From Thermococcus barophilus MP (GTDB taxonomy: Archaea; Methanobacteriota_B; Thermococci; Thermococcales; Thermococcaceae), in the NCBI RefSeq assembly GCF_000151105.2, contig NC_014804.1, positions 124,001 through 188,000 on the forward strand: a stretch of 64,000 bases of DNA, in the 5' to 3' direction. Below are positions 9,884 to 57,845 of the stretch, piece after piece. Made by a program: the position numbers and the translations under genes. The notes under the pieces are model-generated. The model ran no database searches. It was not told where the DNA came from and saw nothing but the letters and a program-made list of their open reading frames with translations. The number at the start of each line of letters is the position of its first letter. Positions within the stretch are counted from its first letter, which is position 1.

Positions 9884-10204
9884 ATGACAAAAAGAGTTAT
9901 TCACATCGGACTACCAGAGCTCAGTGAAGATGAGCTCATTGCTTTAGGGGAGTTAGCTCAAGAGACTGCAATTGAATATATATTTGAGCACCTAACAAGA
10001 AGTGAAGTGAAGGACATAGAGGTTACAGCCAGAATAAACAAGGAAGAGACGCTTGATTTGGAGCTTGAGATATACCTTGAGGTACCAATATTTGTGAAGG
10101 TTGATGTTGATAAGCTGGTTGAGGAGGCTTTAGAATTAGCCTATGAAAAAGTTGAGGAAAGGTTGAGGGAGATAGCTCATGAAGGATTACAAAAAAATAG
10201 CTGA
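9884..10204 (+). CDS. DUF3194 protein, prefoldin-linked
   Basis: A 106-residue acidic protein matching the archaeal DUF3194 family, which commonly follows prefoldin beta. It is rich in Glu and predicted alpha/beta, with no catalytic motif. The ATG behind GGTGATTGG is preferred to an ATG 12 bases upstream that overlaps that site. The last 26 bases overlap the nucleotidyltransferase gene. Function is unknown. Confidence 0.75.
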   Translation: MTKRVIHIGLPELSEDELIALGELAQETAIEYIFEHLTRSEVKDIEVTARINKEETLDLELEIYLEVPIFVKVDVDKLVEEALELAYEKVEERLREIAHEGLQKNS

Positions 10205-10502
10205 GGAATTTGGGAGAGAGGTTTCAAAGCTTCTGGGAGATCAGTTGGTGAAGGTTATTCTCTTTGGGTCTGTAGCAAGAGGGAAGGAGAGGGAGAACTC
10301 AGATATTGATGTTCTAATTATAGTAAGGGATAATTCATGGAAAATCCAGCAAGATGTAAGCGGGATTGTTCTCAAGTATCTTATTAAATATGGTGTTTAT
10401 ATATCTGTCAAGGTCGTAACCGAAGAGGAATTTGAAATAATGAGGGATATGCACTCCTCATTTTATCATGAGGTTTTCAGGGAGGGTATAAGGATTGCAT
10501 GA
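10179..10502 (+). CDS. Minimal nucleotidyltransferase (MNT), antitoxin-type partner of HEPN
   Basis: A 107-residue MNT-domain protein. The nucleotidyltransferase signature GSVARGKERENSDID (Gly-Ser, ten residues, Asp-x-Asp) is intact near residues 31-45, so metal binding is likely possible. In studied MNT/HEPN systems the MNT protein neutralises HEPN by adding nucleotides to it; that is family knowledge, not shown here. The start ATG lies inside the end of the DUF3194 gene, after GAGGGAG. The HEPN partner starts within its last codons. A fused homologue of this pair occurs at 57165-57845. Confidence 0.88.
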   Translation: MKDYKKIAEEFGREVSKLLGDQLVKVILFGSVARGKERENSDIDVLIIVRDNSWKIQQDVSGIVLKYLIKYGVYISVKVVTEEEFEIMRDMHSSFYHEVFREGIRIA

Positions 10503-10902
10503 GTTTGAGGAATACCTTCAAAAGGCTCATGAGAAGCTAAAAGCTACAGAAATTTTATTGAGCAATGGTTTCTATGAGGATGCCATAAGTAGAGCATACT
10601 ATGCAATGTTTTATGCAGCTCGAGCACTTTTATCTACTAAAAACATTTATCCAAAAACACATAGGGGTATAGTTCAGAAATTTGGGCTTGAATTTGTAAG
10701 CAAAGGGTTAATAGAGGGGTTTTATGCAAAGGCACTTATCGCAGTTCAGGAGAGAAGGGAAAGAGCTGATTATGACATATACTACATTCCAACTTTTGAG
10801 GAAGCAAAAGAAATCTTCGAAACTGCTCAACGTTTTGTGAAGAGAGTTGAACAAGCAATTTCGGAAATGGTGAAAAACAATGAGAGGCAAAATAAAACTT
10901 AA
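10495..10902 (+). CDS. HEPN domain protein, partner of MNT
   Basis: A 135-residue four-helix HEPN protein with the signature DAISRAYYAMFYAARALL (about 30-47) and RADYDIYY near 89-96. The classical RX4-6H ribonuclease motif is not visible, so RNase activity is uncertain. The only in-frame start that keeps the first helix is TTG at 10495, placed after GGAGGGT at 10481-10487; it overlaps the MNT stop. The 3' end overlaps the DHH gene by 23 bases. With the MNT gene it forms a toxin-antitoxin-type pair. Confidence 0.85.
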   Translation: MHEFEEYLQKAHEKLKATEILLSNGFYEDAISRAYYAMFYAARALLSTKNIYPKTHRGIVQKFGLEFVSKGLIEGFYAKALIAVQERRERADYDIYYIPTFEEAKEIFETAQRFVKRVEQAISEMVKNNERQNKT

Positions 10903-56511: not shown

Positions 56512-56714
56512 TTCCCAGAAAGGAGCTTGAAAGGGAGCTTAAGCTTGAGTTAGCGGTTATTTTTTATCAGCGGGGAGCATTGTCACTTGGGAAAGCCGCT
56601 AAACTTGCGGACATTACAAAAAGGGAGTTTTTAAAGGAGCTTGCAAAAAGAGGGATTCCAAGACACTACACAGAAAAAGAGCTGAAGGAGGATTTGGAGT
56701 TTGCCTGTGGTTAA
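56469..56714 (+). pseudogene. UPF0175-type antitoxin remnant lacking a start codon and a toxin partner
   Basis: The frame reads LKLPRKELERELKLELAVIFYQRGALSLGKAAKLADITKREFLKELAKRGIPRHYTEKELKEDLEFACG, clearly related to the UPF0175 antitoxin at 16815 (compare ALSLGKAAKLADITKREFLKEL with VLSLEQAAEFAELPLQKFIDEL). From the stop at 56454 up to the conserved start there is no ATG, GTG or TTG in frame; an ATG at 56491 is out of frame, as if one base was lost after it. No PIN gene follows; the next gene points the other way. It may be a decayed toxin-antitoxin locus, or use a rare start. Confidence 0.6.
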
Positions 56715-57103
56715 GTTTCTTTTGCCTTCAATCCCTTAACCCTCGACTCGCCAAGCTTTTCACCCATCTTTTCTGCGAGCTTTTCGAGCATCTCCTCCTG
56801 CTCGAAGCGCTTAAGACGGTGATAGGATATTACCGTTGCTACCGTGGCGATTAAAGAGGCAACGGATGCCAATTTGACTACCCAAGCAGAGTCTTCCATC
56901 ACTTTCATGAGCGCTTCTGGGTCTGAGTATAGGAGCATTGAGCCCCCTATAATTCCTAAGAGAATTATCAAACACCGTTTAAAGTCCTCATCCGCTTCTT
57001 TTTTATCTTTAGGGTTCTCAATTAAGATGGCTAAAGCATAAAAGCCTCCCGCCATTATCGAAAACATCAATACCACTACACCAAGAGCACCTACCGAGCC
57101 CAT
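56711..57103 (-). CDS. Small membrane protein of unknown function
   Basis: A 130-residue protein with three hydrophobic stretches (LGVVVLMFSIMAGGFYALAILI, CLIILLGIIGGSMLLY, WVVKLASVASLIATVATVIS) and a long charged helix at the end (RFEQEEMLEKLAEKMGEKLGESRVKGLKAKET). No family recognised. The ATG follows GGAGAAGGGAA. It shares four bases with the end of the antitoxin remnant and is divergent from the HEPN-MNT fusion gene. Confidence 0.55.
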   Translation of the reverse strand: MGSVGALGVVVLMFSIMAGGFYALAILIENPKDKKEADEDFKRCLIILLGIIGGSMLLYSDPEALMKVMEDSAWVVKLASVASLIATVATVISYHRLKRFEQEEMLEKLAEKMGEKLGESRVKGLKAKET

Positions 57104-57113
57104 TTCCCTTCTC

Positions 57114-57130
57114 CCGAAGGGTTAATATAT
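57114..57130 (+). promoter_or_regulatory. BRE/TATA promoter of the HEPN-MNT gene
   Basis: CCGAAGGGTTAATATAT, nearly the same as the glpK promoter at 57898-57914, gives a strong BRE plus TATA; expected start is near 57150, about 15 bases before the ATG, with little leader. Confidence 0.6.
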
Positions 57131-57164
57131 AAGCTCTACAACATCCATAATTAGAGGGCTTACA

Positions 57165-57845
57165 ATGAGCATTAGCGAGGAGATTAAGCTCCATATTAAG
57201 CTTGCCGAGGAAGAGCTTGCCCCAGCCAATGCGCTGCTTGAGCTTGGATATTATAGAGATGCCATAAGCAGGGCATATTATTCCATGTTCCATGCGGCGA
57301 AAGCTCTCCTTCTAACAAAAGGCATCAATCCAAAAAAGCATTCTGGAGTTGTCAAGATGTTTGGGTTGCATTTTGTAACGGAAGGGTTTGTTGAGGAAAC
57401 ATATGCCAAGGCTTTTAACCGTGCATTTGCCTTGAGGTCGAGGGCTGACTATGACATCTACTATTCCCCAGCAAATGAAGAAGCCAGAGAAATCGTTGAG
57501 AGTGCCGAGGCATTTTTGGAAAGGGTTAAAAGTGCATTGGAGATGATCAGCGATGAAGAAAAAGCTCTTGAAGCCTTTTTAGAAGAACTGAAGGGTAAGT
57601 TTGGGGATAGAATTGAGGAAATTATTATTTTTGGTTCCTATGTAAGAGGAGACTATGACGAGGAAAGCGACATTGATGTCATGATAGTTGGCAATGTATC
57701 GTTTGATGAAATTATAAATATCTCAACAAAAGTGCTCCTTAAGTATGGTGAGCTCATAAGCCCGATAATTATCAGTCCCGAAGAATTTAGAAGAAGAAAT
57801 GATTCCTTTATAAAAACTGTTAAGAGGGAAGGAATAAAGGTTTAG
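57165..57845 (+). CDS. HEPN-MNT fusion protein
   Basis: A 226-residue single chain: HEPN helices at about 1-125 (DAISRAYYSMFHAAKALLLTKG, RSRADYDIYYSPANEEA), then an MNT domain at about 135-226 with the full signature GSYVRGDYDEESDID. The HEPN half is closely similar to the separate HEPN protein at 10495; the split pair has the order MNT then HEPN, reversed here. The usual RX4-6H RNase motif is not seen in either. A toxin with built-in antitoxin, or a fused nucleotidyltransferase with another role, is possible. Confidence 0.85.
   Translation: MSISEEIKLHIKLAEEELAPANALLELGYYRDAISRAYYSMFHAAKALLLTKGINPKKHSGVVKMFGLHFVTEGFVEETYAKAFNRAFALRSRADYDIYYSPANEEAREIVESAEAFLERVKSALEMISDEEKALEAFLEELKGKFGDRIEEIIIFGSYVRGDYDEESDIDVMIVGNVSFDEIINISTKVLLKYGELISPIIISPEEFRRRNDSFIKTVKREGIKV

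Follow-up and report, generated by a model that had tools for sequence, protein, structure and literature searches.

The open reading frame that joins a HEPN and an MNT domain in the analyzed DNA (64,000 nucleotides from Thermococcus barophilus MP, hereafter the window) is very probably an ordinary archaeal class II HEPN/MNT pair, whose overlapping genes were joined by the loss of one A from a run of six, whether by recent mutation or by a slip in sequencing. The joining may be recent, i.e. a mutation of the strain, or unreal, i.e. a homopolymer slip, and the two stand at roughly even chances. The module itself is of a known kind and belongs to a described class. The features discussed are collected in Table 1.

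Table 1. Features of the joined HEPN-MNT locus and of the paralogous pair (window coordinates)
Feature	Position	Strand	Basis
ORF as read: class II HEPN joined to MNT, 226 aa, ATG start	57165..57845	+	ORF, Pfam
HEPN half, PF05168	57165..57548	+	Pfam match, conservation alignment
MNT half, PF01909, GSX10DXD intact at 57633-57677	57564..57845	+	Pfam match, translation
TATA-like element TTAATATATA upstream of the HEPN start, conserved in G092 and G091	57122..57131	+	DNA alignment
GGAG within the HEPN 3' end, likely ribosome-binding site of MNT when it was a gene of its own	57539..57542	+	Junction sequences, putative
ATG out of frame in the window; in relatives, the start codon of a separate MNT gene	57553..57555	+	Alignment
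A5 run, A6 in G092, G091, G082, and G075; the missing base joins two frames	57559..57563	+	DNA alignment
Small membrane-like protein, divergent, sharing the intergenic promoter region with HEPN	56711..57103	-	ORF, neighborhood comparison
MNT of the paralogous pair, GSX10DXD at 10266-10310	10179..10502	+	Pfam
HEPN of the paralogous pair, MNT-first clade	10495..10902	+	Pfam, tree

A preliminary description of the window had read the ORF as HEPN followed by MNT in one chain, and profile searches confirmed both domains. Residues 9-122 matched Pfam HEPN (E 2.7e-24) and residues 136-219 matched NTP_transf_2 (E 3.5e-12), both well over the curated cut-offs; the HEPN half scored 86 bits with PF05168 against a cut-off of 22 bits. 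As that description also stated, the GSX10DXD site is intact in both MNTs of the window, being formed by Gly157, Ser158, Asp169, and Asp171 in the fused ORF and by Gly30, Ser31, Asp42, and Asp44 in the MNT of the second pair. The disrupted site that it had named as an objection to its own reading was thus not found in the sequence as given. The HEPN half carries the class-conserved residues Arg36, Tyr38, Tyr39, His59, Arg91, Asp95, and Tyr96. In an alignment of 39 class II HEPNs, Tyr38, Tyr39, Ala47, His59, and Arg91 were invariant and Arg36, Asp95, and Tyr96 nearly so, Tyr96 being kept in 38 of the 39. It lies five residues past Arg91, in the place of the class I HEPN histidine.

According to Yao et al. 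2020 (PMC7641770), class II modules are pairs of PF05168 and PF01909 proteins in which GSX10DXD and a conserved tyrosine are present and RX4HXY is missing. The window protein did not behave as a class I member: RX4HXY is absent from the fused HEPN (R91-SRAD-Y96-D97-I98), and the NCBIfam MntA_antitoxin cut-off of 60 was not reached (24 and 34.9 bits). The absence of an RX4-6H motif from the two HEPNs, as previously claimed, holds for the canonical place in both, which in the fused protein reads R91-SRAD-Y96; neither window protein has a histidine at +5 from this arginine. It does not hold literally, because the fused HEPN contains an R-X6-H string (R36-AYYSMF-H43) in helix 2, away from the catalytic position; the HEPN at 10495 has a tyrosine where His43 stands. 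Since the lack of RX4-6H is a published feature of class II (PMC7641770), it says nothing special about the fused protein. One class II HEPN (L064:1667-2047) was seen to carry a histidine in place of the conserved tyrosine (REESDHGIF), which gives an RX4H pattern.

The junction was examined by DNA alignment with five relatives that are co-linear with the window. The sole frame-changing difference was one missing A: the window reads GATGAAG-AAAAAGC, whereas G092 and G091 read GATGAAGAAAAAAGC. The run is AAAAAA in four of the five relatives and GAAAAA in the fifth (L015). With six A residues, the HEPN frame terminates after a few more codons, and MNT starts from the equivalent of the ATG at 57553. 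With five, as in the window, the HEPN stop is lost and the HEPN frame continues into MNT, whereas the ATG opens only a 9-codon peptide followed by TAG. Thus, the absence of one A in the overlap both removed the HEPN stop and shifted the former MNT start into another frame. The gene layout of the locus, one ORF as against two in all near relatives, hinges on this base.

The closest relatives, G092 and G091 from the same genus, encode proteins identical to the window halves at 94% (HEPN) and 81-85% (MNT) of positions. They have the same gene order and the same TATA-like promoter, where CCCGAAGGGTTAATATATAAGCTC is identical across the three genomes, but two overlapping ORFs. Among 24 HEPN-first loci of the Thermococcales, HEPN and MNT were separate genes in 20, the HEPN was broken in two, and the genes were joined in two, namely the window and locus L026 of G027. 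The latter owes its joining to an 82-nt deletion that removed the last HEPN helix and connected the remainder to MNT. In intact loci of this group, two ORFs either overlap or directly adjoin where HEPN meets MNT. In L011 and L049 the HEPN genes are frameshifted, which indicates that the module decays repeatedly in the Thermococcales; L011 also has a stop within the MNT region. A widespread fused family was rejected: no fusion occurred in a set of 80 related loci retrieved from GTDB genomes, some of which repeat Thermococcales loci, and no other uninterrupted full-length match to the fused query was present among the matches listed from 115 genomes of the phylum, in scans that could miss distant fusions. 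Plasmid-borne relatives were set aside, as no plasmid record covered 80% of the query. The preliminary description had taken the protein for a fusion that locks toxin and antitoxin at 1:1 and so may not act as an addiction module. An evolved fusion with such a role was not supported, the joining being private to one genome, due to one base, and surrounded by near relatives that all have two genes.

The same description had called the pair at 10179-10902 the split homologue of the fused gene. Its reversed order, MNT then HEPN, was verified by Pfam matches to both domains (E 2.2e-11 and 4.9e-21, respectively), and the likeness of the two HEPNs was borne out by about 50% identity with RADYDIYY common to both. 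The term itself, however, does not apply. In a tree of 88 class II HEPNs, the fused HEPN fell among HEPN-first Thermococcales loci beside G092 and G091 (support 98/98), and the HEPN at 10495 fell among MNT-first loci that include other Thermococcales. Support is weak at some inner forks, yet the separation of the two window genes is clear. The pair is a paralogue from the MNT-first clade. True two-gene counterparts of the fused gene were found in other Thermococcales, in G092 at the same locus. A reversal of order through rearrangement in the window genome was rejected, since order tracks the paralogous clades in the tree. In G092 the pair is exactly absent, the DUF3194 gene running directly into the DHH phosphoesterase gene, and it looks like a two-gene cassette that was cleanly inserted or cleanly lost. 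The HEPN of the pair has a 3' end (RQNKT*) similar to that of the G092 DUF3194 gene (GQNKT*).

The surroundings of the loci offered further observations. The small protein divergent from the fused ORF matched no Pfam family, and homologues or look-alikes of it are found in divergent orientation next to HEPN-first loci of G092, G091, G006, G078, and G059, several of them ending in KAKET, KARET, or similar. A gene resembling RtcA (RNA 3'-phosphate cyclase; recognized by eye from IDGSYGEGGGQ) stands directly upstream of the HEPN-MNT pair on the same strand in six loci from two genera (L012, L016, L018, L019, L020, and L026), which hints at a link of HEPN-MNT to RNA repair. In G092 (locus L009), a VapBC-like pair, again recognized by eye, is located downstream of the MNT, between HEPN-MNT and the next shared gene, and is absent from the window, suggesting that small toxin-antitoxin modules have a hot spot here.

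Real mutation and artifact were weighed by selection and by assembly quality. Compared with G092, the halves had dN/dS values of 0.10 (HEPN) and 0.14 (MNT). Both halves are under purifying selection and neither is an old pseudogene; the joining, if real, is therefore recent, and otherwise a sequencing error. The window genome (G000) and G092 are syntenic with about 95% identity over 351 kb aligned. After compensated indels and start-site differences were set aside, the fused-ORF junction was the only homopolymer coding frameshift attributable to G000 in these 351 kb; the G092 stretch holds about 450 coding homopolymer runs of six or more. One non-homopolymer frameshift was seen in G000, at chromosome position 286001. 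Coding homopolymer frameshifts are very rare, and the G000 assembly is thus not obviously error-prone. Such events do occur in complete genomes, as an aminopeptidase-like gene, intact in G000, seems to be frameshifted at a homopolymer in G092, so that error and mutation could both account for the missing base. We give an even chance to a homopolymer sequencing or assembly error, with the organism having the ordinary two overlapping genes: a run of six A residues read as five is a classic error and the aminopeptidase-like gene provides a precedent, but the junction would be the single instance of its kind in the aligned 351 kb. The preliminary description had itself named an assembly frameshift joining two genes as what would speak against it. 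One A is indeed missing from a homopolymer, which comes near to that objection, with assembly error and real mutation about equally likely. If the five-A reading is an error, the entry is not to be cited as a natural fusion.

A real mutation could mark a stage in the module's decay, as suggested by the frameshifted HEPNs of L011 and L049 and by the deletion in L026, but all conserved residues of both halves survive in the window and this explanation seems improbable. Programmed slippage on the A-run, yielding separate and fused products in the relatives, would fit the six A residues in the overlap of four of them. A-rich slippery sites typically cause a -1 shift, however, and the shift needed here is +1. 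Moreover, the run is poorly kept across the clade (L015, GGAAAAAG; L012, GAGAAAGG; L016, GAAGAAAG), which makes a programmed slip so unlikely that it was rejected. There is a minor chance that the five-A run is real and the strain has a working single chain, whose MNT would modify Tyr96 of the HEPN in the same chain or in a partner chain. The intact halves under purifying selection and the rarity of such assembly errors in G000 are in its favor, as is PDB entry 9xbd, which contains as many HEPN as MNT chains. Also in its favor, AlphaFold2 confidently predicted two domains for the fused protein (pLDDT 92, pTM 0.77), and the best structural matches of the model were the HEPN 2hsb and chains of HEPN-MNT complexes. 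In the same model, the final helix of HEPN merges with the opening helix of MNT into one (residues 104-149), a long rigid element that may hold the MNT site off Tyr96 of the same chain. Also against it, the joining comes from one base in one genome and the near relatives are all split, and no free MNT is expected from a start that is out of frame. With a working single chain, the toxin would be permanently coupled to its neutralizer and the module tamed, or turned into a sensor instead of an addiction system. Only tentatively, then, might the strain be said to make a self-neutralizing class II HEPN-MNT chain, a natural one-base experiment turning a toxin-antitoxin pair into a covalently coupled enzyme and substrate. 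Should the five A residues be confirmed, the strain could be matched with its six-A relatives to ask whether only a separate, diffusible MNT protein can neutralize HEPN.

For the ordinary two-gene module that we favor as the ancestral state, a mechanism can be proposed by analogy with class I HepT/MntA. HEPN would be the toxin, possibly of RNase type, and MNT, with ATP and its GSX10DXD site, would transfer AMP to a conserved tyrosine of the toxin and so neutralize it. The putative AMP acceptor in the window HEPN is Tyr96 of R91-SRAD-Y96, and Arg36, His59, and Arg91 may contribute to the toxic site. Yao et al. 2020 (PMC7641770) stated that class II had not been studied biochemically, and our literature search found no demonstration of AMPylation or toxicity for this class.

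Compared with known systems, the locus is closest to the class II modules (PMC7641770), which are abundant in archaea and share its Pfam pair, GSX10DXD, HEPN tyrosine, and lack of RX4HXY, but have separate genes where the window, as read, has one chain. Type VII HepT/MntA systems (class I; Shewanella, Aphanizomenon, Legionella, and Thermococcus cleftensis) likewise combine HEPN with a GSX10DXD MNT. Their HEPNs, however, are PF01934 or PF08780 proteins with RX4HXY, whereas the window HEPN has Tyr96 at the histidine place, and AMPylation of a HEPN tyrosine, shown there, is only proposed here. Single chains have precedents. A HEPN-MNT fusion on the Agrobacterium plasmid pAgK84 was mentioned in Makarova 2009 (PMC2701414), so that one-chain HEPN and MNT had been reported earlier. 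L026 is a single chain of the same clade as the window protein but arose by a deletion that also cost a HEPN helix. The closest solved HEPN sequences are those of PDB entries 9xbc and 9xbd, with a nucleotidyltransferase partner, and of 2hsb (AF0298), with E values of 5e-14 to 3e-17; an MNT is present in 9xbd as well (E 1.6e-7). The four HEPN and four MNT of 9xbd are separate chains, unlike the fused protein, and because they are present in equal number, a 1:1 ratio is in itself not abnormal.
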